In this document: positions 4,104 through 63,971 of the stretch, piece by piece
Position numbering within the stretch: the first letter of the stretch is position 1
How the letters are laid out: every line of letters starts with the position of its first letter
Assembly (NCBI GenBank): GCA_033239005.1
Contig: BSQZ01000051.1
Coordinates: 3,377,501-3,441,500, forward strand
Direction of reading: 5' to 3'
DNA length: 64,000 bases
Source of the DNA: Lamellibrachia satsuma
Lineage: Eukaryota; Annelida; Polychaeta; Sabellida; Siboglinidae
Program-made: the position numbers and the translations under genes
Notes under the pieces: generated by a model
What the model saw: the letters and a program-made list of their open reading frames with translations, nothing else
What the model was told of the DNA's origin: nothing
The model's database searches: none

Positions 4104-27643
<23,540 letters not shown>

Positions 27644-28214: not shown

Positions 28215-29590
28215 TGTTCTGCTCTTTCCATTAGTAGCTTTAGAGGGATTGGTTGTCCTTCCTTGCCTTTATTTCCTTAGGTACCTTTTTGTGGAGTTAC
28301 AATTAACTGCCCTAAATAATCCGATTTAGCCTCCTGAAATTTAGCATCTGAAACTGGTAATGAACTAATATCCTCTCTGGCAAACACTGAACTGAAGCAT
28401 CCGTTTAGGTCTTCTGCCATTAAAAAAACCTTGTGATGTTATATTTCCAGTACTGTCTCCAACCTTGTCCTAACTTGTTTCGTACATTTTGTTTATTCTT
28501 GACATATGCATACAAACGCTTGCTCTCATTGTTCATGTTACATGCTAATTTTTACTCATAGCTTCTTTTAGATTGTCTAATTTAATTCGTAGCTGTTTTA
28601 TGTGGCTCTTTGTAATTTGGTTACTCTTCATCCTTTCCGGAACGTCTATAAACTCGCCACATAGTTTGCATGTACGCTATTTTCTAATAGCTTCTTTTGA
28701 CAAGTGTTTTGCTTTCTAGACCGATTTTCTTGTTTTTCAAAGGAACAAATTGATCAATGGTACCCTCAATTTCATATTTTATATTGTTCCAACATTCAAT
28801 TGCGATCTTATTCCTAAGCATGTTATTCCAATCTACCTATGCTACGTATTTTCTCATATCTTTATATTTACCTTTGTGGAAGTTTATCCTGTAGTTTTGT
28901 ATTTGTACTTTGATGTACTCTGATTTTACTTTAATGTAAAAATGTATTTGATTATGATCACTGTTACCCAATGGCTCATATATGTTAGCACTGTCGACTA
29001 ATTCATCACTGTTACCCAATGGCTCATATATGTTGGCACTGTCGACTAATTCATCACTGTTACCCAATGGCTCATATATGTTGGCACTGTCGACTAATTC
29101 ATCACTGTTACCCAATGGCTCATATAGGTTGGCACTGTCGACTAATTCATCACTGTTACCCAATGGCTCATATATGTTGGCACTGTCGACTAATTCATCA
29201 CTGTTACCCAATGGCTCATATATGTTAGCACTGTCGACTAATTCATCAATGTTACCCAATGGCTCATATATGTTGGCACTGTCGACTAATTCATCACTGC
29301 TACCCAATGGCTCATATATGTTGGCACTGTCGACTAATTCATCACTGTTACCCAATGGCTCATATATGTTGGCACTGTCGAATAATTCATTTTGTGAAGA
29401 AAAACATCAATCTGATACATGTTCTCCCCGGTTGGTTCTAGCATGCGTTGAGTAAGAAAGGTATATTGAATGATAAATAGAAACTGTTGTTCCTTACCCC
29501 CTGTACTCTCCAGATATTTCCATTGTATGCGTCTCACATGCATAGCGAAGTGATGTTTATGCAACGGCATATGGTAGAAAGACAACATGG
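28215..29590 (-). mobile_element. CR1-like LINE, copy D (decayed, with internal expansion)
   Basis: The reverse strand corresponds to copy B from the RT start (at the left end, 28,215) back to the endonuclease region (right end). Readable pieces: LVDSANIYEPLGNSDHNQI and MRKYVA. The endonuclease part is expanded by a 48-bp tandem repeat (28,966-29,393). Stops and frameshifts are many. Confidence 0.88.
28966..29393 (-). repeat. 48-bp tandem repeat inside a LINE endonuclease frame, about nine units
   Basis: Each unit encodes NSDELVDSANIYEPLG (16 residues), a direct repeat of the segment that in copy B reads KELVDNVKIFEPLGNSD next to the catalytic SDH. It is in frame, so 172 residues stay open on the reverse strand. 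Units are nearly identical (CTGTTACCC or ATGTTACCC; GTTAGC or GTTGGC). Confidence 0.96.
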
Positions 29591-30249
29591 ATTAATCAAG
29601 ATTGAATGACAATGAATGTAGGGGTATGGCGGGTAAAACAGGTTAATAGGGGAAACTGGGAAATGTCTATATATTACGACCACATTGTGCCATCTCGCAA
29701 AAATCCGTAAACATACACTATTGCACATGACAGGCAGACCAGAGAAAGTGCTTGTTAAAGATAAAGAAAGATAACGACTGCTGATCCTTGTCTTTGTTTT
29801 TTTTATTTTAGTTTAACATGACCAAAATATAGAAAAATAATGTCACTTTTTTATAATTGCTTGCGAGCGGGCAAAATAGTACATCGAATTGTTCACGGAA
29901 ACAGTCGATGACGACTACATCCAGTGCAGCCCGAGTTAGATACTGACACGTGTTGAATGCGCTGGTCTCGTCGACAACTAGACATATTTTGAATGTGAAC
30001 GATGCTTATCAAAATGATGACAATAAATGCCTACCCGTTTGCACCATTACCTTCTCGGTCGTGATACATTCCGTTTTGTCATTAAAGTGTTCTTCAAAGA
30101 GGGTTGTTGTTTTTCATGTAAATGAATGTAGATAGTTGCAACTATTTCACCAAAAATCGCCATACATAATTTTTATCTCATATTACCCGCAGGCAACATA
30201 CGTTTTGCCCGACTAGGGCAGGCAAAGGGGAATTGGTTGGGGGGTGGGG
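29591..30249. other. Non-coding spacer
   Basis: No gene recognised. Short frames only; AT-rich. Confidence 0.5.
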
Positions 30250-30441
30250 TGGGAAACCGGCTAAATTGCATATTTATGTTACCCTATCCAAAAATAATGC
30301 AACCACTGGATGCGTCCAAAATACGTGCTTAATTGAACAAAATAAATGTAATTGTGTAGGATTTGTGGAAGCCCTAGGGTGCAAATATCACTAAAAAGCG
30401 ACCCGTTTTGCCTGTCCTTCCACTACACGTTTTTATACTTG

Positions 30442-30443
<2 letters not shown>

Positions 30444-30511
<68 letters not shown>
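30444..30511. repeat. (GA)n microsatellite
   Basis: Pure GA; absent from the matching place (about 60,870) of the other duplicate. Confidence 0.97.
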
Positions 30512-30515
<4 letters not shown>

Positions 30516-30719
30516 CGCAGTCACGCAACATTATAATTTTTACCTTTGCGCTATGACATCATGCTGCAATATTTGCCTAGAAACATTATCTGGAGAATAT
30601 TGCGTGCATACGGATTCCCGACTCATATCGTGTACATCATCAAGCTGTTTTATGAGAACTAGACACGCACCACCAGACAATCAGATATAACAGTTAAGGC
30701 AAAGTGAGAAGCGTGAGAG

Positions 30720-31212
<493 letters not shown>

Positions 31213-31399
31213 AGGAGGTAAAGTGTGTGATGCCCGCAGTCTTATTCAGTCTTGTAATGAACAGGATTATGAAGAGGGCACAAACAGGAGGAATTAGATG
31301 GACAATGTTTTTTTCTCGCGAAGAGATTGACATCGTTGATGACGTAACATGTCTTATCTCATACGCGACAAGACATGTCAGAAATGACGAAAAAATCAA

Positions 31400-32057
31400 G
31401 GAAATCAGCCAGAAGATATAACTCAAAATCTTCAAAAAGAAATCAGAGGTGATGGGGCTGAACCACACAAACGCTGTATCAGTTTATCTCGATCAAGAAG
31501 ATATGTAAACCACTAATATCTTCACCTACACGCGAAGCATAGTTTGTAAAGAGGGATGAACCATTATTGAATTCACGAATCACTCGAAAAAGGCAAGAGG
31601 AGCATTTGTCATACTATGACCTGTATAGAAATCGACCATATACTCTAGAAGAATGAAGCCGAGGCTACATCAGAGTTGCGTTCTCTTCATGGTTCAGAAT
31701 GATGGCGTATGACTGAAACATATCTCAGACAACTTTCAACCCTTCAACCTACAAAGATCTTCTTAAACTTAATTAATTGACATGGATGACTTGCTCACCA
31801 CAAGAATATGAAGATGGATGGGTCACGTTTGACGAAAAGATAGCCACAGTATGGTAAAACAGCTTTGATGTGTATCCCCGAAAAAAAAACGTGGACGCCC
31901 AAAATCACCCTGGAGGAGAACTGAGAGATTACGCTAAATGCACCTCAGCTGGGGTCAGGCTGCCAAACAAGCTTCAGACCGATAGGGGTGGATAGGTTTT
32001 GTTTCTGCCTTATGTACCTGTAAGCACGAAGAGGACTAAGCAAGTAAGTAAGTAAGT
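31400..32057 (+). mobile_element. LINE 3' remnant with (TAAG)n tail
   Basis: The sequence (GAAGATGGATGGGTCACG; ACGTGGACGCCCAAAATC) matches the C-terminal end of LINE ORF2 proteins (W-R-W-x-G-H-x-L-R-K ... G-K-R-R-R-G-R-P-K) and ends in a (TAAG)n tail at 32,036-32,057. It is the counterpart of 61,830-62,370. Confidence 0.7.
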
Positions 32058-32239
32058 ACAGTTGTGGCCATTGCACCAACACGAATCCAGTTTGGAAGTG
32101 ATGTCCTCTCTAACGAACGGCACGGTGTAAGAATAACGAACACTAACGGACACATGGCGATTTGCACTCAAAATGGGAAAATATTGGATACAAGTTGACG
32201 TTGGTTGACCCAACTTCAAGTAGTACACAAACATAAACG

Positions 32240-32860
32240 CACGAAAACAGCTTTCCAATTCCCCACCAGGCGTTGCAACTGCACCTAACGCATTTGTCAG
32301 AAACTTCGCAGGTCCCATTTTATGCAGGAGACCATGCACTATGCGGCACTCTTAGCTACGCATTTGGGAAGACCGTGTCTACTACAGTCACGACACAAGT
32401 GGCCTCTGAAATGGCAACTGCCTCTCTTGCAGTGAACCATACTAACCTGCGGAGGATCTACAACAGTACTTTTACCTACATATAATTCGTTCTTTCTTGA
32501 AGACAAAACTCTACTTTTACAAAGCAAGCTAGATCATCGTTATGTAAAGAGTATTTTAGACGTGACACTTACCTATCGTGTAACTGTTTTGCGCTTAAAT
32601 AATTGTGGTTATATGTACACAATGTTGGAGGCTGTACTAGACAGGATTAGCTATGTTACATAAAAGTGGCTAATCTGTTGCATACTGCATACTGCAGCGG
32701 AAAGGATAATAACATACTGAAATACTGCCTTCACCGTTACATAACAATTTCTATGAATAATGCGTAAGCATCATTTCATAAACTAATCATGAGTGAAAGG
32801 TATAGTACACTTTCTCCGTGGAATGGTCAGAAGAGGATTTTCCTCTCTCTTGTTGCGACG
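32240..32860 (-). pseudogene. Broken copy of the secreted Cys-rich peptide gene
   Basis: The reverse strand carries a decayed last exon (from 32,457 leftwards, acceptor TACTGTTGTAG intact) that reads DPPQVSMVHCKRGSC and PKCVAKSAA, then a TAG stop at 32,341-32,339 and, further on, a frameshift. After the shift the frame resumes CVRCSCNAW. One cysteine of the CxC pair is Phe (CHF). The preceding small basic exon is also visible (about 32,809-32,859) but its acceptor AG is AC, and part of its terminal basic motif is deleted. No exon 2 or exon 1 is seen to the right. This is an inactive paralogue of the gene at 62,725-63,971. Confidence 0.85.
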
Positions 32861-33060
32861 TTGAAGGGAAACAAAACGCTGTAGTTTAAATTAGAACAAA
32901 TGCAACACAAAATGTATATAGAGTAGACAAGTAACACAACCAAGTGTTGGTAAATAACTACATTAACTACATACAGCAGGACGCTGGGCTAAATGCGGGG
33001 TCTCAATGTGGTGAAGACAGTCAGATTCGTGCAGATCACATTAATCACGACGCCTGACGT

Positions 33061-52473: not shown

Positions 52474-52557
52474 ATGCGTGCAGCCATCGTCCTTCTATTC
52501 ACGTGTCTAGCGTTGGCAGCTTTGGCTGATGACAATGCGGGTCAGTTGGAGAAAAAG
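52474..52557 (+). CDS. Cys-rich peptide exon 1 (signal peptide)
   Basis: The ATG at 52,474 follows GTTGTAGAGAAA and opens MRAAIVLLFTCLALAALA, cut predicted before DDNAGQLEKK. Donor AAG|GTATGA, phase 0. Confidence 0.87.
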
Positions 52558-53831
52558 GTATGAAAATTATGTTCGCCAATCCTGTCGATCTTTGATGGTT
52601 CCATCCATTTGCTCCAAAAGAGATATGTCCATCATTACCGTATGCAGGATAACTGACTCTAGTTCTTCGTCTTCCTTCACATAGTCAAATAATGTAAAGA
52701 CTGGTCTGCTATGACCTGATCGGCTGTGTTTTGTAATTTAGTACTTCTACTCTCATAACTAAATCATTAATTATAATTTACTAAATTCGTTTATGTATAC
52801 ATGTTATATACATATCAGCGTCAGTAAGTTGACAGTTCATTGTGTAATAATTTCGTCACCGATGTGGTGCTAATGAATTATATTCTACTGAGGTGTGTAA
52901 ATCTTTCTTTCTTGATTAGGGTGACGAATCCTCTGTAAGCTTGGGCGAAGCCAGCGATGAAGTGTCTCGTACGCGTTGCTTGCATACAATATTTTATTTA
53001 TGAACATTTTCGTGTATAACGCAACGAAATGCATATCGTACGTGATATGTATTATAATACCAAAGACAGTTTAACATATGATTCACACGTAACGTGCAGC
53101 CGTCTAACTTCTGAACATTCTAATTGTCTCTTTTGTATCCGGAACATTGTTTCTCGTGCGATTTCTGACAGCTAAGCAAGCTATCATCAGTTCTGCATTG
53201 GTGGTATCATACCCCAGTTCATATATTTTGGCATTCGGGTATGCAGCGTACCGAAGATCATGCATATTTTCTGTTTTCTTCAAGGTCGCAACAAGAGAGA
53301 AGAAAACCCTCTTCTGACCATTGGCCGCAGAACCCGTCGACGTTCGTCATATTGTCGTTTTTAATCATTATACTTGTAGTAGATTCTTAGTAACCATTAT
53401 TCAATAGACCGTCAAACACACACTTCACTATGTTATTATCGTATATCGATGCTATTATCGTATATCGTACGGAACTGTAACGCCAGTCGTCGACTGCCAA
53501 TATAATATCATAACATTCATCAGAACACGCACATATATCCTAGTGTCGCTTCAACAAATGTTACGTTTTGAATGCGAGAAAGACTAACTGTTCTTTTGTA
53601 GATGCGGATGACTGTCACGTTTCGTGCAGGAGAGGCAGTTGCCACTGCAAAGGCCACACATGCAAATGCTACTGCAGCTGGTGGTTTGGTGTTCCTCGTT
53701 GCCGTGCAAAGTGTGGCCACACCCACTACTGCGAAGCCAGGTGCAAAAAGGGGTTGTGTGGCGCCCAGCACAAGTGCGTCAAGTGTTCTTGCTTCTTTTC
53801 GGGATCTCCAAACTGTAAAGGAGGGTGCTGA
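52474..53831 (+). CDS. Secreted cysteine-rich peptide precursor, four exons
   Basis: The exons (52474-52557, 52920-52968, 53285-53341, 53602-53831) join with phases 0, 1, 1 into 139 residues. Order: a signal peptide (MRAAIVLLFTCLALAALA), a short acidic propeptide, a basic propeptide with two furin-type sites (RRNKR and RRTRR), and a Cys-rich mature part of about 75 residues with 17 Cys. The mature part is two copies of a C-x3-C-x4-C ... C-x-C ... C-x3-C unit; C-x3-C with C-x-C recalls cysteine-stabilised defensin-like and mytilin-like peptides, but the full pattern is not one I recognise. The 17 Cys are odd in number, so one may be free or pair between chains. Poly(A) signals AATAAA follow at 53,923 and 53,928. 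A role in host defence, venom or mucus is inference only. Paralogues: 62,725-63,971, and pseudogenes at 32.3 and 60.4 kb. Confidence 0.85.
52920..52968 (+). CDS. Cys-rich peptide exon 2 (acidic propeptide)
   Basis: Acceptor TTTCTTTCTTGATTAG; encodes GDESSVSLGEASDEVS; donor C|GTACGC, phase 1. The homologous exon at 63,923-63,971 has the same length (49 bp) and phase and reads DEDSSVSLSEVSDDVS, strong support that both are real. Confidence 0.85.
53285..53341 (+). CDS. Cys-rich peptide exon 3 (basic propeptide with furin sites)
   Basis: Acceptor TTTTCTGTTTTCTTCAAG; 57 bp; encodes NKREENPLLTIGRRTRR after a split Arg; donor C|GTTCGT is weak. Phase 1 in and 1 out, so skipping it would also keep the frame. 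The matching 57-bp exon at 63,328-63,384 keeps acceptor, length and phase and has a better donor (GTACGT). Confidence 0.75.
53602..53831 (+). CDS. Cys-rich peptide exon 4 (mature domain)
   Basis: Acceptor GTTCTTTTGTAG. Encodes ADDCHVSCRRGSCHC, KGHTCKCYCSWWFGVPRC, RAKCGHTHYCEARC, KKGLCGAQHKCVKCSC and SGSPNCKGGC, then TGA. The unit C-x3-C-(R/K)2-G-x-C appears twice, which indicates an internal duplication. Basic overall. Confidence 0.92.
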
Positions 53832-53922
53832 ATGTTCTGTTCGCCAGAGGGCGCACCACTCTGCAGCATGGCCTACGTATGAGAAGACAACGTTGGAGTG
53901 TTCTACTGCTGCGATTGTAGAT

Positions 53923-53933
53923 AATAAAATAAA
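53923..53933 (+). terminator. Poly(A) signals of the Cys-rich peptide gene
   Basis: Two overlapping AATAAA hexamers in ATAATAAAATAAATGG, about 90 bases after the stop codon. Confidence 0.75.
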
Positions 53934-54719
53934 TGGTGATATATCTCATTTATACAAAATCCGTTCGGTCATAACCACATCGCAAACAACATTTGTGATG
54001 AGTGTCGTAACGGCCTTTCGAATAAGCAAATTGTCCGCGGAAAATCCCGCTCAGCCCACATGATATATACATGTAATATACATTGACGACAAAATTAGAA
54101 GAAATATGTTTTGGTCGTATAAAATTCTGCACTACTCGTATGAAAAAAACTGCATGTTATACAATATACACTTCAACCGGCATAAGGCAATTTGTATACC
54201 CTGGTACCACTGACACACCCGTTAATACGATTAATAATGTATTAATCGTACACCTTTAGTAACAAGGTTAACTTTCGAAAAAATATTAATGTATAATATT
54301 GTCACAGTGATGCGGAAGCGTGGTACTGGGCGTAACAATAAAAATGGGTCGATTAGCAAAGAAAACAAAATTGGTAGGATAAATTACTTCTTGGGATACG
54401 TGAAATAGAAAGTGTTTTTGGGAAAGCCTATTTTGGCCGTTTTTGGCTCATAACTCATCGGGAATTAGGGCCATTTGGTGACACATGACTATAGAAAAGT
54501 ATATATTTCCTGAACAATCTCGGCAAAACAAATCCAGTGATATTTGTGGTTGAGGGTAGTAATGTGTGTGCGTGCGTGAGAATGTGGGAAGTATTACACT
54601 CCTACGTTTCAAGAGTATTGACATATGTTAACATAAAAAGTGTGGCAGAATTCATGTCACACATTTACATGAATAATGTTTGAGGGTTTTCTTAAATACA
54701 CTCGATACTGTTCACTGAC
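53934..54719. other. Non-coding spacer
   Basis: No gene, RNA or array recognised. Confidence 0.5.
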
Positions 54720-54960
54720 TTTGAAAAGCCCTGCTAGTCGTGAACAGGCGTACCTGCAGTAAATAAATAATAATAAGTAATAATAATAAACTAATATGGT
54801 TGTTAATTCTGCTATCGATCTGGATGCGGATGTGAGTTCACCACGCCACCTAGTGGAGGCAGTGTAATGAGTTCAGACAAAACGAGAGGGCAAATTTAAA
54901 GCATACGCAGCGTCAATCAATGATATTCCAACAGAGGGTAGAATATAGATCTGTTGGTGC
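54720..54960 (+). repeat. Dispersed repeat R6, copy 2
   Basis: Inverted match of 50,080-50,280 (GCCCTGCTAGTCGTGAAC; CACCTAGTGGAGGCAGTGTA). Confidence 0.8.
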
Positions 54961-54989
54961 TCGCGCATATGCGTCAGCCGTTCGGCCAC

Positions 54990-55095
54990 TTGTTTCACAT
55001 GCAGAGTTGATCTGCGCAGTTTGTGGTTGCTGGATCAAACACTATCCACAGGGTTCATACAGTTTTATTGAGTACACGGGCACTCAAAAGGTACG
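54990..55095 (+). repeat. Dispersed repeat R5, copy 2
   Basis: Inverted match of 46,245-46,350. Confidence 0.85.
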
Positions 55096-55189
55096 TTTTT
55101 ATACAATACTTGGGATTGTTCAAAGCGCTTTACACTTCACCCCCTGGCAGACCTGTTCATTCCAACGCCATTTCAACTTCTCTGGGAAG

Positions 55190-55395
55190 CACGCACTTAC
55201 TGCGCGAATACTGTTCGTTCCGATATCCATCTCTGTCTGTAGACAGATACTCATGTATACAGTTGAGTGAACTGTGGCAACGTGGTATGAACGAAATTGC
55301 CAAAGCTTCGAAATGGCAGCAGGAGTATTCGAAAACACGGGTTCCCTCGATTGAGAGCCCGACTTTCTAACCGCTACACTACAGCGTCCCATAAA
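55190..55395 (-). mobile_element. tRNA-derived SINE, decayed copy
   Basis: The reverse strand starts GGGACGCTGTAGTGTAGCGG, continues TCTCAATCGAGGGAACCCG, and the body CCACGTTGCCACAGTTCACTC matches the SINE at 41,255-41,500. The B-box is damaged (TTTTCGAATAC). Confidence 0.7.
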
Positions 55396-55399
55396 CATA

Positions 55400-55522
55400 C
55401 GCACGCACGCACGCACACATAAACACACACCCATACACCCATACACACACGCACACACATACACACACTCACACACACGCACACTCACACTCACACTCAC
55501 ACTCACACTCACACTCACACTC

Positions 55523-55597
<75 letters not shown>
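55400..55597. repeat. (CACG)n / (CACACT)n / (CA)n microsatellites
   Basis: Three array types in a row, pure CA at the right end. The 168-residue reverse frame over it is an artefact. Confidence 0.97.
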
Positions 55598-55600
<3 letters not shown>

Positions 55601-55689
55601 TAAGGCGTTATTGTTATCAAGTACACCGCTGTTTTCCTAGTGATTTGTGTTGGACCAGTGCCAACTTGAGCAAATGAGACGGTTATTTA

Positions 55690-55775
55690 ACAACAAGATT
55701 TAACCTGACAGCCATACAAAGATAAACTCAAGATGGGAAATGGACAAGGAAACCATTGGCGGATCGAGGGTGTTT
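55690..55775 (-). mobile_element. CR1-like LINE 3' end fragment
   Basis: AACAAGATTTAACC, AGATGGGAAATGGACAAGGA and ACCATTGGCGGATCGAG correspond to the reversed 3' UTR of the LINE family. Confidence 0.72.
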
Positions 55776-55799
55776 AATGCCATGGTGTCGCGCAAACGT

Positions 55800-56790
55800 T
55801 GTATGTTTGTGTGATGCATTACTCTCCTTAGTATATTTGGCGATGCATTACTCTCCTGCGTCTCATTAGTAGTATACGTTAATATGTATAATGTGCAACA
55901 GAATTCAGGTCTAGCAAAGTCTTCCTTTACATTAATAACGTTTGTGGTTTGTTTAGTTTTATAACTACCTGTCCCGTCCATCAAGACTCCCTGTGGCGAT
56001 CAGCCTCTAAGGTATGCCGATTACAATGTTCACCGCCTATGAAGCGGGTTACAGCTCACTATTTATCGTTTACTGGCTTACACCTGTCCATGGAGCAACT
56101 ACGTTGAAAACACACCTTTTCCAATAGGCCGCCATTATAATGTTTCTTAGGACTCCAGGATAATTTTTCCTACGATTTGTTTAACATTTCACAGCATATG
56201 TATCCTCTATTAACACACATTCTGTGTGAATTTCGAGAAAATGACAAAAACTCAGAAACAAATATGCCCAAATCTGATGCACTTCAGCCCCGTGACTAGT
56301 TTATAAATGCCGGAACGCTGTCATCAAATTAAAAATTTCATGTAATGCACTTCAGCCCCGTGACTAGTTTATAAATGCCGGAACGCTGTCATCAAATTAA
56401 AAATTTCATGTAGTTATATATGACACCTTCACTTTAATAACGTATCCGTTGGAAACAAAATGACTCGTTAAAAAACACAAAGGCAGTTACTAGATTTATA
56501 TACTAACAGTATGCTTTTATACCTGCCGGACAAAGATGGAAACAGTGGGCGAAATAAATGTTAAACCACTGTCGAGGCGGAGATACTGTGACCTTTGTTG
56601 GCCACATACCAAATTTAAGGTCCATCGGATCTGTGAAGAGAGAATTGGTGGATCATAGGCCAATGGTGCAAGCAGGCGAAGGAGTATAGAAACAAGCGAT
56701 TGGACGTCGGCGCCTGGGAGGAGACTGCCAGACGACCCCCACAGTTAGCGTATTAACATAGAGCTTGCTAAGTCACGGTTTCGCCCTCTG
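55800..56790 (-). repeat. Dispersed repeat R3, copy 2
   Basis: Reverse complement of 44,230-45,270, block by block. It contains a 68-bp exact tandem duplication at 56,276-56,412 that copy 1 lacks. Confidence 0.88.
56276..56412. repeat. 68-bp exact tandem duplication
   Basis: ATGCACTTCAGCCCCGTGAC ... AAAAATTTCATGTA occurs twice in direct succession without differences. Confidence 0.96.
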
Positions 56791-56889
56791 AAGAGTGAAT
56801 CACACTCAATTGGTCTGCTGTTCCATCTTTGTACGACAGGTAGAACAGCATATAAGCATATATAAGTATAAATTACTACAATTGTGAAT

Positions 56890-57860
56890 TATTTAACATT
56901 TCCACTGGTGGGGAGTTTGATGCCAAATATAACCACCGCTATAAAATTTCTCGCCAGTGGCGCCACTAATCATTTCACCACTGCCACAATTTACATATTT
57001 CGTTCGGTACACTGCTATTTTTTTCAACAAATCTCAGTTCCAGTTGTATGTAATTGTGGACTGTGGCTGCATTGAACATGTGCTTAGAAACAAAATAACG
57101 TTAGTTTTTTACTACGTTACGTTGACTCAAATGTACAACTGCAATGACGTAACATGTCAGGTGCAACAGTCACATTGCACGGCCAACATACCACTCCACA
57201 CCGGCCATTGTAAATCCACCGGCCAACTTGTGGCAGTGATTATGTGCTAACTGGCGCCACTGTCTGGAAGTTTGGCGCACTGTAAAATTAGGAGTTTACC
57301 AAATCAAATGACAGTGTGGAGAATTTACACATCAAGTGTAAGTTGGTGGTAAAATTGTGAGTGACATTATATTCGCTACGTGGCGCGACAGGTGGGGAGT
57401 TTGTCTGCACCGTTGCGTCCAAATTCCACCCAGTGGCGCCTCTCACCATTTCGCAATTGCCACAACTTGGGTGTTCATATTCTACACATCTTTGTTTCAT
57501 TTGGTACACTCCTATTTGTTGTCAAAACATGTTTTAATTTCAATTGCAAGCAACTGTGTATTATGTTTGTATTGAACTTAAGTGTGTCTAGAAACACAAT
57601 AACATTCGGTTTTTTTAATTATGTTACATTACTCAATTGCCTCTGGCAATGACTTAATAAGTCGTAGAAATGATGTTGCCTTGCTAAAAATTTATTTGTA
57701 CCAATCTGCAACTGTATATTTTGAACTCATAATCAAGTTGTGACAGTGGTTATACGCTAAGTGGCGCCACTGTCGGGGAGGGTGCATCAAAACTCCCCAA
57801 CAGTGGCGCCACTCAGTATTTCAACACTGTCACAACTTCATAATTGAAGTTAAAGAAATT
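56890..57860. repeat. ~484-bp diverged tandem repeat with GTGGCGCCAC palindromes
   Basis: GGTGGGGAGTTTG recurs at 56,907 and 57,391; both copies go on with AGTGGCGCC, CACCA, TTGCCACAA and AAACACAATAAC-type blocks. A third partial unit lies near 57,760. The palindrome GTGGCGCCAC is exact at 56,957, 57,761 and 57,803. Confidence 0.8.
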
Positions 57861-58060
57861 AACAGATGTCTTGACAACTGGACAATGCAGAGTGGCATGT
57901 TGACTGGGAAATGCGATTGTTGTCTACGACTTGTTACGTCATTGCAACTGTGCACTCGACTGCGTAGCATAGTTTCAAACGAAAGCGAAAACGAGCGTTG
58001 TTTTGTTCCTATTCACATTTTCAAAGGAAACGCCATCCACAATTGCATGCAACTGAAATT
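57800..58060 (+). repeat. Dispersed repeat R1, copy 2
   Basis: Matches 35,160-35,440 (GCGATTGTTGTCTACGAC; TTACGTCATTGCAAC; AGTTTCAAACGAAAGCG). Confidence 0.8.
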
Positions 58061-58565
58061 GAGAGATTTATTAAACTAAATAGGAGTTGACTAAATGAAC
58101 TGACGATGATGATATCAGTGGTGAAACAGAGAGTGACTTACATTACATTCACTATGTTGCGCCACTGTGGAGATTTCACGTTGCCTCGTGCTGCTTCCTA
58201 TATGAATGTTTAGATTAGTTCTTAAAGTTCCAGAAGGCGAAACCACATTAGCGCGCCTAGCGGTAATTCAGCTGCTTGCCTACTCAGCCACTGCGCGCCC
58301 ACTCGGGTTATCACAGGTGACGGGTCGACAGGAAAATGTCCACAAAGCGACTTCACCACCATCGAATACGTCGTATGTACGGGATAAACTTCAGCTATAT
58401 TAATCACGAACATGAGGAAAACAGTGACGTTCGGCTATGCATTGTTGTGTGCAGTATTGCTAGTGATACGGTACAATCAGCAAAATCAAGTAATGACAAA
58501 CAACAACAGTAAAAATACCTGGTACTTTTCAAAACTGTGACTTTTTGGCAGATGCGCATCAGTGT

Positions 58566-58774
58566 TTATTCGGCGCGGTGACGTGGCGGAAGAACGCTGA
58601 CTTCCCATTCCGGAAGAATAAGGGCAACTTGTTTCATTGCCTTTGCTGACACGAGCACGTCGTCTGAGTCATCGAAACGACGGAATATCAGCCGAGGCAG
58701 GTCCATGTCTACCGTAGGCAGATGTCCAGCTGGTAGTTCTGAGAAGCAGGAAGCATCGTATATTCTCCAAGTGT
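58566..58774 (-). other. Open frame of unknown nature (possible exon fragment)
   Basis: The reverse strand reads ASCFSELPAGHLPTVDMD, LPRLIFRRFDDSDDVLVSA and VALILPEWEVSVLPPRHRAE-stop. The composition looks protein-like, but I recognise no domain. A LINE fragment begins at 58,775 and cuts the frame at its N-terminal side. Confidence 0.3.
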
Positions 58775-59470
58775 ATTTAAGATTTAACAAGATTTGCCAT
58801 CCAAGTCAAAGGCCCAGATGACAAGTGGACAAGGAAGCCATTGGCTTATTGAGAGTCCAACAATGTTTATCTACGTGTAACCCGCCCTCCTGAGATATTT
58901 GTCAACTTTGTTTTTAAACATGTCCACGCTGCTAGCTGAAACATATTCCGTAGACAATGTGTTCCATTCTTACATTGTCCTCTGTGAGAACGAGTATTTC
59001 CTGATATCCAATCTACGCTGATCCTTCACCAGTTTTACTTCATGTCCTCTAGTTCTACGATCTTTGTTGAGTGAAAAATACATGTTTCTATCAATATTTT
59101 CAAAACCATTCAATATCTTGAAAACTTCAGTATGATCTCTCAACATCCTTGTCCCTATGGTTGTTAAACTATAATAGGTGTAGTTGCTCTCGTCTGTATG
59201 CGTTCATGTGTATCTATATCATCCGTACGATATGGTATCCAAGCTTGTGTACGGTATTCTATATGGGGTCTAACTATTGCATTATACATAGGTATAATTA
59301 ACTTTTTTCCTTGTTTGTTTCTCGTAATCAACCCATGAGTTTGATTACCCTATGAAGCTGCAGTACTACAGTGTTCTGAAACGTTCATATCAGCACTTAG
59401 TTTTATTCTAAAGTCCTTTACTTTTACAGTAATACATAAAACAGTATCTCCCATATCATAGTTTGTATGT
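58775..59470 (-). mobile_element. CR1-like LINE, 3' fragment of about 700 bp
   Basis: The reversed 3' UTR (AACAAGATTTGCCATCCAAG; CATTGGCTTATTGAGAGTCC), the C-terminal block and the end of the RT region, parallel to 11,107-11,850 of copy B. Broken by stops. Confidence 0.92.
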
Positions 59471-60334
59471 GTGTGGTTCAATTGTATTGTTCGTGCAAAA
59501 TATGGCAGGACATCACAGTGCTGCTGTTTACTCGCTAGCGGAACTATCTTGTATCACATGCAGAAGCTAGAACAATATATGGGTATATGTTGGTTAATAT
59601 ATTGCACTAGGACGCATCACAAAATAAGTCAAATTGGAATATAGCTTGATACCAGCCTCAAATTGGTCTTCTGCGTTTCACTAACCTCATAAGCTGTGTC
59701 GTTCTTATAAACGGTTCCGTTAAATTAATATTATATTATGTTGTTTTGCTGGGTTCATAGTGACAACATTGTCACAAGTGTATTGATATTTTAATCACAT
59801 TGGGACATGCATACATATTAACTGATTAAGTAACACCTACTAATCCTGAAGGGTCGTATTTATGAAACCGTGGACATCTTCGCACAGTGTTCATGCTCCC
59901 ACAAAAAACGATAATAACCAACTTAAATCCAGTTGCAAATATCAAACGCAAACAGTTTGTGTAGTTCTACGGTCGTTTCAACAATGTTAGCGAGAGAGAC
60001 ACTTTCATACCACAGTCTCATTGTTGTGTGTGTTTGCCCTGCAAAACTGAGGTCGTTGTACAGGGATAATACATGCCTAGGTATATTCTAACGGATGGTA
60101 CTGGGCGAGAGTGTCGATAATTTATAGACAACTGACTATTCATATGCGTAAAGTTAGTGAATAAATAAAGAGGAAATTGTGCTTATAAGTTGATGTTAGT
60201 TGTTCTATCTCAAGTCATTTAGTACACAACCACTAAAAAAAACCGTGAAAACAGTCATTTAGTCAATTAGTTAGAATATGTGTTATTATTGTACACAAAT
60301 ACAACAGTACATCACTGCAACGTTGTCGTGTGAG
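59471..60334. other. Non-coding spacer
   Basis: No gene seen. The block at 60,050-60,130 (GGGATAATACATGCCTAGG) recurs at 51,815-51,890 (GGGATAATATATGCCTAGG). Confidence 0.5.
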
Positions 60335-60580
60335 ATGAATTCCACACTACAGGGCGGAGCGCGCTCTGGGGAACAGAACCTCTAACACTAACGCTGCAAA
60401 ACCCCTTTCGCCAGAGGCTGCAACGACCCTTTTTACACGTTTGCCCGAAATTATGAAACTCCCCCATCTGTTGACGGCCCAGCAGGCGTATTAGTGGCCA
60501 CATTGAGCACTGCATTTGGGACGTGGCCACATTATACATCTGCTGCGTTCTGATATAATTGTACGTCTATGGAAGCAGGA
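60335..60580 (-). pseudogene. Second broken copy of the Cys-rich peptide last exon
   Basis: The reverse strand reads SRCIMWPRPKCSAQCGH and then a TAA stop; after a frameshift it goes on TCKKGRCSLWRKGFCSV. These align with RSKCIIGRPKC and CRAKCGH of the intact copies and with the second repeat CKKGLC. The stop and the shift make it inactive. The start of the exon and all upstream exons are lost; a Penelope-like element begins about 400 bp to the right. Confidence 0.75.
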
Positions 60581-60959
60581 TGTTTGATAAGAATGCTCAA
60601 AATAGCCAGAAAAAAAAATACTTGTATAACTCCGTGATAATGACTGTTGATATATCTTTGTTTTTTTTGTGGGGGAGACTTCGGTTAAACTGCATATTTA
60701 TATTACCCCATCCCAAAATTAACACAACGACTTCATGCGCCAAAAATAACGTACTTAATTGAACGAAATAAATGTTATCGTCTAGCATTTTTATGGTGGC
60801 GCTAGGGTACAAATGTAACTAAGCGACCCGTTTTGCCCGCCCATCGCCCATACATGGTTTTGCACTTGGCGAAATAGACGCAGTCATGCAATATTCTCAT
60901 TTGTACGTGTGCGCTATGGAATCATGCTTCCGTAGTTGAATACAAACTCTCTCTGAAGA

Positions 60960-61812
60960 CCACTGCGTGTATAGGTTGTCTTGGTGACATGACTCGGTCT
61001 ATACCCCCTCATCTAGATTCATGACTGGAGTTGTCTTTCTGATGCACATGCATCTTTGATCCATCTTGCCTGTCTGTTACACTCTCCGTCAAACACTTCT
61101 GCCCCTCCCTGTGTGTGATGAAATGTTTCGTGTATGCCTGGTCTGTTACTACAGACTTATGCTCGACCATCGCTGACTCTCTTTTCTGTTACCTGCTAAA
61201 TCATCTGGTTGTGATGTTTTCAACCTCCTTCTTCTGTTCTTCGAGTCTTATTCCAAATGTTCTCCCTGTTTCGCCGATATACGTGTGGCTACAGCTCTTA
61301 CAAGGGAGATGGTATGCACAGTCTGTCTTTTTTACTCTCTTCAACTTTGTCCTTTGGATGCACTAGTACTCTCCTGATGTTTGGTGAGGTCTAACCGATG
61401 TAGCGATCTCATGGTGTTTTAAAATCCGATGTATAGGTTCTGTTACTCTATTGACAGACTGAAGTGTGACCATACATTTGGATATCTTTTGGATTTCTCT
61501 GTTTTCGTTTCCTTCTTTTCCTTGGTTTTTCCCTACAGAAATTGTTGTTCTTTCACTTTCTTTATGGTCCAACGTGGGAACCCACATCTTTCTATTGCTT
61601 CGGTGATCTGTTCCTCGTGTTTATATCTGTTCTCTGGCTCTGATACACTGTTGTTGCATCTATTTACTAACGTTTTGATGACCTGCAGTTTTTGGTGTAA
61701 CAGATGATGAGACGTGTAGTTCAGATATTGGTTTGTGTCCGTCTTCTTCCGATACACAATGAGTTTCACTCTTCCATCTGCCTTTCGCATCACTGATACC
61801 TTCACCTACCTG
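60960..61812 (-). mobile_element. Penelope-like element, C-terminal part with GIY-YIG endonuclease
   Basis: The reverse strand, in broken frames, reads KLIVYRKKTDTNQYLNYTS, HHLLHQKLQVIKTLVNRC and ERCGFPRWTIKKVKEQ (end of the Penelope RT), SVNRVTEPIHRILKHHEIAT, then CAYHLPCKSCSHTYIGETGR and TFGIRLEEQKKEVEN, the GIY-YIG-type nuclease core with its Cys pair (C-x4-C-x2-C), and last RQARWIKDACASERQ. The order is that of Penelope/Poseidon retroelements. 5'-truncated; several frameshifts. Confidence 0.88.
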
Positions 61813-61829
61813 AGAAACATTGTTTACAA

Positions 61830-62370
61830 AGAGTGTAAATAAACACAAAGAATCGCATGAATAAGGATAGAGGAGCATGTTTCAGACCTCTATGGAGGTC
61901 GACCATGCACTCGAGAAGAAAAAGCTGAGGCTACATTAGAGTTGAGTTATCTCCAGTCTGCCATATGGTTCAGAATGCGTATGACTGAAACAGATGTTAT
62001 GCACCTTCCATTCAAAATGCCTTCGAAACATCATGCGAATATTGTGGCCACAAAATGTCTCCAACAAAAAACTTCTTAAATAAACTAAGCAAATTAACAT
62101 GGATGACTTACTCACCACAAGGTGGAGATGGTGGAGAAGGTGGAGATGGATGGGCCATGGTTTAGGAAAAGATGACGAAAATAGCCAACACACCATTAAT
62201 GTGGACCCCGGAAGGAAAATGAGGACGACCAAAACCAACCAGGAGGTGAAATGTTGAGGGAGAGTAACGCGAAATGCACCCCAGCTGCATGTTGCAAATC
62301 GACATAAATGGAGAGGTCTTATTTCTGCCTTGTGCGCCAGAAGGTTCGAAAAGGATTAAGTAAGTAGAAT
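61830..62370 (+). mobile_element. LINE 3' remnant (counterpart of 31,400-32,057)
   Basis: Reads RWRWMGHGL and, in broken frames, an end like that of LINE ORF2 (GKRRRGRPK-type), then GGATTAAGTAAGTAG. It is part of the segmental duplication. Confidence 0.72.
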
Positions 62371-62724
62371 TGTAGCTACTGCACTAACAAGAATTAAACT
62401 GGGAAGTGATGTCGTTATTGTGGAATAATACATATATTGACATACGCTAACGAATGGCAAAGGGTGATAATATCGAACACTAATGGACAAGTTATGATTT
62501 GTATACGCAAAGACAAAATGAGAAAATATGCATGCAAGTTTATGTCGGTTGAGCCACCTTCATTTGATACATAAACAAACGCAAACGCAGCACAAACAGC
62601 TCCTTGTAGTAAGTCACATTTATTTAGAATGTGTTTTATTGATTGCAACGATACAACACTTGAAAGGTTTCATACTCTTCTACAAGCCACAAGCAGACGG
62701 AGCGTCCTCTAGCGAACACAACAT
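62371..62724. other. 3' flank of the right-hand Cys-rich peptide gene
   Basis: Reverse-strand poly(A) signal AATAAA at 62,635-62,640 (TTTATT on the + strand), about 85 bases after the stop codon of the gene at 62,725. Otherwise nothing recognised. Confidence 0.6.
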
Positions 62725-62957
62725 TTAACATTTGGTGCAGTAGGCCTTTCCATTTCCCCAGGCGCTGCAACTGCACGTGACGCATTTGCCAAAAATTATG
62801 CAGGTGTCGTTTTTGCAGAAGACCATGCAGTAGGCGGAGCCGTTGGCACTCTTGGCCACGCATTTGGGACGACCAATTATACACTTGCTACGACACCATT
62901 GGCCTCTGCAGTTACAGTTGCCTTTCTTGCAGAGAACCGTACTAAACTGCGGAGGAT
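62725..62957 (-). CDS. Cys-rich paralogue, last exon (mature domain)
   Basis: Acceptor CGTACTTTTCTAG. Encodes PPQFSTVLCKKGNCNC, RGQWCRSKCIIGRPKC, VAKSANGSAYCMVFC, KNDTCIIFGKCVTCSC and SAWGNGKAYCTKC, then TAA. CKKGNC and CKNDTC begin two similar halves. One N-glycosylation sequon, NGS, and one NDT. Confidence 0.92.
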
Positions 62958-63971
62958 CTAGAAAAGTACGTTTATTTACATGTACTTCGTCCACTCTTGC
63001 GGACCAAACTCAAACTTTTACTGAGCAATATACTGTATATGCAGTTAGGTAATTGTTACGAGTACTTTTTAGCGTGACACATGCCTATTGGGTTACTTAT
63101 TTGTATATAAATAATGTTGGTTACATATGCAAGTAAGTTATAGGAGGCTGACCTAGGCAGACTATGTTACATAAAAGTTACTAATATGTTGCATAATGCA
63201 TTCTGCATGGGGAAAGGATAATAGCATGCTGAAATACAGTCTACATCATTATATAGGCTTTCCTATGAATAATGCATATGCAACATTTAATAAGCTATTC
63301 ATGAATGGAAATTATAGTAAAACGTACTTCGGCGTGTTCTCCGTTGAAATGTCAGAAGAGGATTCGCCGCTCTCTTGTTGCGACCTTGAAGGGAAACAAA
63401 ACGTTGTAGTTTAAATCACAGTTAATGCAAACAACAGTAACACAGAAACACAAAATTGTTTTGGTAAATAAGTAATTTAACTACATGCAACAGGACTCTA
63501 AGACAGATGCGGAATCTCAAAGTGGTGAAAGTCAGATTCGTGCAGCATACGAAATTAGTCGAGTGGCACAATGAAACAGAACGAGCGAGCGAGAGAGATA
63601 GAGGGGGAGAGAGAGAGAGGGAGGGAGAGAGGGAGAGAGAGAGAGAGGGAGAGGGAGAGACGTATGACCGTGTTTTAACTCGGTTGTCTCACCCCAGACG
63701 TCCAGAACTCAGAAACGTGTTACAACGGCCTTGATAACCACGAAATGAAAGACACTAATACCATCACCTTAAGTGTCAACTACATAACGCAATATGTAAA
63801 GCAGATTGTGATAATATATTGATTACCTCCTTTGGTATTGTGATATAATATCATATCCAAAATCTATTACATTTCGTAATGCAAGAAACACCCAAGAAGA
63901 AGGGGAATGTACGAACACATACCAGACACGTCGTCGCTGACTTCGCTCAGACTCACTGAGGAATCTTCATC
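62725..63971 (-). CDS. Secreted cysteine-rich peptide precursor, paralogue (5' end outside window)
   Basis: Three exons on the reverse strand: 63971-63923 (acidic propeptide), 63384-63328 (basic propeptide), 62957-62725 (mature part and stop). Exon 1 with the signal peptide must lie beyond 64,000. Lengths of the first two (49 and 57 bp) and all phases equal those of the 52,474-53,831 gene. The basic exon keeps both furin-type sites (RNKR and RRTRR). The mature domain has 14 Cys in the same two-repeat layout; it lacks three Cys of the + strand paralogue (the first, the middle one of C-x-C-x-C, and the one before GHTHY). Neighbouring pseudogenes at 32.3 and 60.4 kb lie in the same orientation. 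A secreted, processed, disulfide-rich peptide; target unknown. Confidence 0.85.
63328..63384 (-). CDS. Cys-rich paralogue, basic propeptide exon
   Basis: Acceptor TTGTTTCCCTTCAAG, donor A|GTACGT, 57 bp. Encodes RNKRAANPLLTFQRRTRR. It is strongly conserved with 53,285-53,341 (41 bases with few changes), while the flanking intron is not. Confidence 0.82.
63585..63662. repeat. (GA)n / (GAGAGG)n microsatellite
   Basis: Purine tract in the intron between the acidic and basic propeptide exons. Confidence 0.93.
63923..63971 (-). CDS. Cys-rich paralogue, acidic propeptide exon
   Basis: Acceptor TGTGTTTATTAG, donor G|GTATGT, 49 bp. Encodes DEDSSVSLSEVSDDVS. Phase 0 in, phase 1 out. Confidence 0.85.

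Follow-up and report, generated by a model that had tools for sequence, protein, structure and literature searches.

What is made by a pair of small genes for cysteine-rich secreted peptides in the genome of the tubeworm Lamellibrachia satsuma? The genes, henceforth A and B, belong to a stretch of 64,000 nucleotides (nt; GenBank assembly GCA_033239005.1, contig BSQZ01000051.1, positions 3,377,501 to 3,441,500 of the forward strand), which we call the window and whose positions are counted from its first letter. A preliminary description of the window had them as two intact genes on opposite strands, and inspection of splice sites and reading frames bears this out: gene A, on the + strand, ends in a mature part with 17 cysteines (Cys), and gene B, on the - strand, in one with 14. 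We find that both are members of a large and apparently undescribed family whose precursors follow one exon plan and whose mature parts are cationic and built on 16 core Cys. Judging from these sequences, the family somewhat probably encodes lineage-restricted, cationic, disulfide-rich host-defence peptides of the Lamellibrachia tubeworm.

Genes A and B and their precursors

Gene A (52474-53831, + strand) is split into four exons, whose lengths are 84, 49, 57 and 230 nt with the stop codon counted in the last. All three introns have GT/AG ends, and the reading frame is intact for a precursor of 139 residues. The precursor runs from a signal peptide through an acidic stretch (charge -6) and R-N-K-R to a 14-residue linker with an R-T-R-R end, and then into the mature part, whose 76 residues include 17 Cys and carry a net charge of +10 (K+R-D-E). 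Gene B (63971-62725, - strand) has exons 2 to 4 inside the window (49, 57 and 233 nt), with phases as in gene A, while its exon 1 lies just past the window end on the same contig, henceforth C51.

52474..52557, + strand: gene A exon 1, 84 nt, signal peptide and start of the acidic propeptide; ATG, GT donor at +84
52920..52968, + strand: gene A exon 2, 49 nt, acidic propeptide; AG/GT junctions, phase kept
53285..53341, + strand: gene A exon 3, 57 nt, linker between two furin-type R-x-[KR]-R sites seen in the sequence
53602..53831, + strand: gene A exon 4, mature part, 17 Cys, two homologous halves, stop codon
53923..53928, + strand: putative gene A polyadenylation signal AATAAA, a sequence match only
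C51:3441743-3441660, 160-243 bases beyond the window end: gene B exon 1, 84 nt, GT at +84
63923..63971, - strand: gene B exon 2, 49 nt, acidic propeptide
63328..63384, - strand: gene B exon 3, 57 nt, linker between two furin-type sites
62725..62957, - strand: gene B exon 4, 233 nt, mature part, 14 Cys, stop codon; identical to the matching part of LSAT2_023926

The layout of signal peptide, acidic propeptide, furin-type sites and Cys-rich mature domain, which the preliminary description had seen in full in one gene, recurs in 13 genes of the genome with a common exon plan: signal, acidic propeptide, linker between furin-type sites, mature part. Exons 1, 3 and 4 could be placed in all 13, and exon 2 also in ten of them, where its length of 49 nt is constant. 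The exon 1 donor stands at +84 and the signal exon is hydrophobic in 13 of 13, and both furin-type sites are present, by eye, in 12. At the remaining locus, L012 (L-numbers denote family loci in the genome), neither site has the strict form and the most exon-2-like stretch contains a stop, so this gene may be decaying. The precursor layout points to secretion and furin-type processing: the signal peptide would target the precursor for secretion, the acidic propeptide would offset the positive charge of the mature part, and furin-type proteases would cleave at R-x-[KR]-R and R-T-R-R.

Public proteins include members of the same family. Word-based searches of a collection of 5.8 billion proteins gave 2, 6 and 10 matches. 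Eight of the ten distinct matches are from L. satsuma, the other two are ENA entries whose similarity is confined to the signal region, and no other named species matched. R-x-[KR]-R occurs twice in A and in six of the ten matches; the other four stop short of the second site or lack the region. The hypothetical L. satsuma proteins LSAT2_031238, LSAT2_023926 and LSAT2_029770 are family members: LSAT2_031238 and the product of the genome gene L002 agree at all but 3 of 139 residues, and over a span of 112 residues gene B and LSAT2_023926 show no difference. None of the matches corresponds to gene A itself. That related proteins occur in the public L. satsuma gene set and that 13 genes share an exon plan places the A/B genes beyond chance. 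In the public models P0002, P0003, P0004 and P0009 the exons for signal and propeptide (prepro exons) are fused to other tails, or the first exon is a different one. Since these models are misjoined, the public annotation probably miscounts the family; for gene B, whose first exon differs in P0003 / LSAT2_023926, the model's version is probably the wrong one.

Family size and turnover of copies

The family is far larger than the window had shown. Searching the mature part of A against 735 Mb of genome in 279 contigs (E<=10; for a family of this size the counts are lower bounds) gave at least 43 matching places: 25 on C51, 15 on C11, 2 on C10 and 1 on C43. Thirty of the 43 have E<1e-3, and among these 30, 21 are free of stops and 9 have an internal stop. 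The birth and death of copies that the preliminary description had read from two pseudogenes near 32.3 and 60.4 kb is thus upheld on a wider scale, by the clusters on C51 and C11, by the relics and by the stops in 9 of the best 30 places. Both pseudogenes are real relics, and both are broken:

32235..32905, - strand: broken B-type copy spanning the exon 3 to exon 4 region, intron 3 included, with a stop, indels and lost splice sites
60286..60547, - strand: broken relic holding exon 4 and 3' untranslated region (UTR) sequence only

The relic near 32.3 kb is 74% identical to gene B across 824 nt and has an in-frame stop. The relic near 60.4 kb aligns with a score of 111, as against a maximum of 41 among 500 shuffles. 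Gene B and the 32 kb relic sit inside a duplicated segment (window positions 60669-63545 versus 30244-33034) that aligns in four blocks of 62-77% identity, flanking repeat-like DNA included. Elsewhere on the contig, the relics L021 (G000:C51:3042081) and L022 (G000:C51:3054318), some 12 kb apart, have the same translation, and after each, equally far away, stands a shortened exon (3043230 and 3055467) that is the same in both cases. This match in translation and distance indicates a recent local duplication.

A 16-cysteine scaffold in two modules

We aligned 19 full-length open exons 4, namely those of the 13 genes and of L018, L020, L023, L025, L029 and L040, and numbered Cys positions by the precursor of A. 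Relatives with stops or cut exons were left out of the Cys counts, as were the open but shortened exon-4 frames at C51:3043230 (equal to 3055467), 3915621 and 3956382. The 19 mature parts span 73-82 residues and contain 14 to 18 Cys, many of them in C-x-C motifs; aromatic residues adjoin Cys, and His is present in 18 of 19. Sixteen core Cys are each retained in 17 to 19 of the 19 members. An extra Cys at position 101 occurs in only 10 (9 on realignment), which makes the odd Cys of gene A the optional one. Net charge ranges from +8 to +19 in 19 of 19, values that may be off by one because the first translated letter comes from an intron-straddling codon (D for the true H in A). A physico-chemical definition of antimicrobial peptides quoted in PMC6780910 asks for fewer than 100 residues and a cationic character, and all 19 mature parts have both.

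The two similar halves that the preliminary description had reported for both genes are detectable in A and in the family, but not in B by itself. Scored against each other, the halves of A give 73, a value attained by none of 5000 full shuffles and by 9 of 5000 in which the Cys stayed in place. For the paralogue P0001 no shuffle of either type, among 5000 each, attained its score, whereas for gene B alone 597 and 555 of 5000 did. Profiles of the two halves from the 19 members aligned in hhalign with a probability of 78% (E 1.9e-5) in local mode, and with only 17% (E 3e-4) when global mode was forced. The half is a real module, and separate 8-Cys half-module exons exist elsewhere in the genome. 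The divergent loci L038, L040 and L042 (G000:C11:3.27-3.40 Mb) have a two-half exon preceded upstream by separate exons that encode one 8-Cys half module apiece. The lengths of the four half-module exons there are 102, 102, 99 and 102 nt, and both boundaries of these exons are in phase 1 provided that the GTAAAT donors are correct; their Cys spacing of 3,4,1,4,1,1,6 or 7 is close to that of half 1 of A (3,4,1,4,1,1,8). They would join the two-half exon in one transcript.

Among the 19 aligned members, losses of core Cys come in twos. Five members each lack exactly two: B lacks 68+86, L014 and L023 lack 122+139, L018 lacks 88+107 and L020 lacks 72+84. If losses were random, a pattern wholly in twos would have a probability of 3e-4 (19 members, 10 losses), which becomes 7e-4 if L014 and L023, which are sister genes, count as one, 0.0025 without L018 and L020, and 0.01 with both steps; L018 and L020 have no exons 1-3 in some 7-8 kb upstream. 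The paired losses read as disulfide partners that would have been lost together, and the mature peptide is pictured as two homologous 8-Cys modules that would fold and be held by disulfides.

The mature part is also the more variable part of the precursor. From the 45 possible pairs among ten genes of the C51 cluster we chose 16, pooling 13 and keeping the pairs among A, L002 and L003 apart. Over the 13 pooled pairs, exons 1 and 3 are 87.0% and 87.9% identical, intron pieces 77.9-81.4%, the 3' UTR 81.0% and the 200 bases upstream 85.3% (5 pairs); exon 4, at 76.2%, is the least conserved segment, though just slightly below the introns. The proportion of nonsynonymous differences (pN) is higher in the mature than in the prepro part in 77 of 78 pairs of the 13 genes, and pN exceeds the synonymous proportion (pS) in 26 of 78 pairs for the mature part without shared Cys codons versus 13 of 78 for the prepro part. 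Within a given pair, exon 4 has also diverged more than the prepro exons at synonymous sites (for instance, dS 0.46 versus 0.03 for L012-L014). A mature part that changes faster at both kinds of site while its Cys are held fits diversification, though it falls short of establishing diversifying selection. Positive selection was dropped as a candidate, given a pooled pN/pS of 0.90 over the 78 pairs (mature part, shared Cys codons removed) and despite a dN of 1.01 and a dS of 0.71 between A and B alone outside shared Cys codons.

Comparison with known families and likely function

The preliminary description had called the Cys pattern unfamiliar, and neither Pfam nor the PDB puts a name to it: profile searches with the mature domains returned no named family and no strong match to a known domain. 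Pfam had no match for A, B, P0001 or P0004 and, for 18 of the 19 aligned members, just two, to unrelated models at E 3.3 and 4. PDB searches gave chance-level matches or none, the best of which, obtained with the 18-member profile, is a fibrillin EGF domain at E 0.68. No such family is named in the main-text passages that word searches turned up in siboglinid genome and proteome papers (PMC6918071, PMC8789280, PMC8476170, PMC10192322, PMC6862839), nor in the titles and abstract openings found in open-access PubMed Central, although a paper elsewhere is possible. Scans of viral_contigs and genome_contigs for a prokaryote or virus origin gave 59 and 58 pattern stretches with 0 confirmed relatives, and this origin was rejected.

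We compared the Cys spacings of A, B, P0001 and P0004 with those of known families, taking chance from 4000 shuffles of each sequence; P0004 has no C-terminal Cys, which may reflect a faulty gene model, as L015-L017, its relatives in the genome, are complete. Because the peptides are so dense in Cys, spacing is weak evidence. The likeness to cysteine-stabilised alpha-beta (CS-alpha-beta) and mytilin peptides that had been suggested for C-x3-C and C-x-C gained no support from this comparison. All 4 sequences have the core C-x3-C ... C-x-C, whose parts lie on helix and strand in that fold, but 522 to 2083 of 4000 shuffles produce it too. None of the 4 has the 6-Cys arrangement, in which one Cys precedes C-x3-C and another C-x-C at the usual distances (chance 149 to 1269 of 4000), or the 8-Cys mussel-defensin spacing; the absence of the latter says little, since chance gives only 0 to 3 of 4000. 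No CS-alpha-beta defensin or macin profile matched in Pfam (A, B, 18 of 18 members) or appeared among the PDB matches. The family does share with invertebrate defensins and macins a cationic, Cys-rich, secreted product and C-x3-C and C-x-C in most halves, but differs in its two 8-Cys modules. The EGF-like spacing C4-x-C5-x(8-12)-C6 fits 3 of 4 sequences, but also 157 to 1414 of 4000 shuffles, and Pfam gave no EGF match in 18 members; the core Cys that are lost together are not known to be EGF partners.

For host defence, the positive charge, the nearly fixed Cys scaffold and the more variable mature part fit such a role, as membrane-active defence peptides are usually cationic, with a near-constant Cys frame and variable loops. 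The released peptide would most likely bind and damage bacterial envelopes, and may guard the body surface, the coelom or the trophosome. Conotoxin and defensin gene families likewise have conserved signal and propeptide exons, a variable mature exon on a fixed Cys frame and clustered copies. The A/B family resembles them in this evolutionary pattern, relics included; we found no sequence relation and no sign of venom. Of the defence or venom role raised by the preliminary description, the defence half fits and the venom half finds no support: no venom apparatus is known from vestimentiferans, and these animals have no digestive tract (PMC3553155).

Several results weigh against the defence reading. 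The paired losses misfit a single connectivity: 88+107 crosses the halves, and 72-84 and 122-139 conflict if both halves pair alike. The shortened open exons at C51:3043230, 3915621 and 3956382 lack 5, 2 and 4 core Cys, mostly via missing stretches. In the three A/L002/L003 pairs exon 4 (81-87% identity) is not less conserved than the intron pieces (66-87%), and pooled pN/pS is 0.62 in both precursor parts, against the 0.90 of the mature part without shared Cys codons. A gamma-core motif is found, but shows no excess over shuffles with Cys fixed, and was dropped as support for an antimicrobial nature.

An alternative that we regard as unlikely is that the peptides might be dedicated symbiosis effectors, made in the trophosome and sent to bacteriocyte vacuoles, where they would limit or reshape the endosymbiont by analogy with the nodule-specific (NCR) cysteine-rich peptides of legumes and the bacteriocyte-specific (BCR) ones of aphids. 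The host group lives in an obligate gammaproteobacterial symbiosis, as a passage in PMC6862839 describes. Named homologues came only from Lamellibrachia in the protein collection, and multi-copy, cationic, secreted Cys-rich peptides recall the BCR and NCR peptides as portrayed in PMC9604261 and PMC6594739, which also report that some BCR peptides permeabilise E. coli. Like the A/B family, those peptides are small, secreted, Cys-rich and lineage-restricted, in hosts with intracellular symbionts. If the losses in B (68+86) and L020 (72+84; it looks like a relic) mark disulfides, half 1 would pair C-x3-C with C-x-C in a nested manner, as aphid BCR4 does (17-34 and 21-32) in a fold that its authors call new (PMC9604261). 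Against this stand the 6 or 8 Cys of BCR peptides (PMC6594739), compared with 16 core Cys in two modules here, and the finding of no sequence match; moreover, a passage in PMC6918071 judges host immune proteins of Riftia to be no major factor in control of the symbiont population. It is likewise doubtful that the family might be a new structural class of 16-Cys double-module cationic peptides, arisen in the Lamellibrachia lineage by duplication of an 8-Cys exon module, that serves as a trophosome arsenal of symbiont control and, in a chemosynthetic animal, parallels NCR and BCR peptides independently.

Inhibition, metal binding and signalling, even taken together, seem improbable. Very unlikely, in our view, is that the peptides could be two-domain inhibitors of serine proteases that descend from, or have converged on, the antistasin type of annelids. 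Leech antistasin inhibitors are, like the A/B family, annelid, two-domain and Cys-rich, and part of the spacing agrees (C3-C7 in half 1 in 4 of 4 sequences, C6-C10 in half 2 in 3 of 4, with the pattern as printed in PMC12838937). These partial fits, however, are matched by 54 to 629 of 4000 shuffles, none of the 4 sequences has the full 10-Cys pattern, Pfam is silent on the 18 scanned members apart from the two unrelated models, and the family differs from antistasin in its strongly cationic character and its prepro region with two furin-type sites. The chance is slimmer still that they might be secreted, thiolate-rich, metallothionein-like peptides for a sulfide- and metal-rich habitat, as the 14 to 18 Cys per 73 to 82 residues, the many C-x-C motifs and the frequent His could suggest. 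Metallothioneins are intracellular and have no signal peptide, whereas all 13 genes here have a hydrophobic signal exon; furin-type sites, aromatics beside Cys, the loss of core Cys in twos among the 19 aligned members and the absence of a Pfam metallothionein match in 18 members also argue against metal binding. Signalling, in which the conserved linker or the mature part would act on a host receptor, is to us just as remote. In pairs with A conservation is greater in the linker (71-93%) than in the mature part (39-82%), but relics, copy number and a variable mature part would be unusual for the ligand of one receptor. An amidation-type Gly before a basic residue occurs in just 2 of 13 linkers (A and L024), and a conserved amidated linker peptide was therefore rejected.

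The remainder of the window holds no Rfam match at gathering level and no tRNA. It has 50 frames of at least 120 residues, of which 7, together with one shorter frame, were scanned with Pfam: three matched reverse transcriptase or endonuclease, one a GDSL/OSK domain, and four gave nothing convincing. Retrotransposon remains on the - strand and tandem arrays are also present.

11636-12685, 13985-14926, 21685-22953 and 23068-24021, - strand: retrotransposon remains (reverse transcriptase twice, endonuclease once, and the GDSL/OSK frame)
18013-18432: tandem array, 42 bp x 10
28957-29390: tandem array, 48 bp x 9
30715-31214: 500-base GA tract

By what means do vestimentiferans keep one bacterial partner and exclude others? 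For this question the A/B cluster offers concrete genes to consider in the trophosome, skin and coelom. Its Cys frame, which carries no name, also adds new material to the study of disulfide-rich folds, and the half modules with separate exons suggest a route by which the 16-Cys frame may have been assembled.

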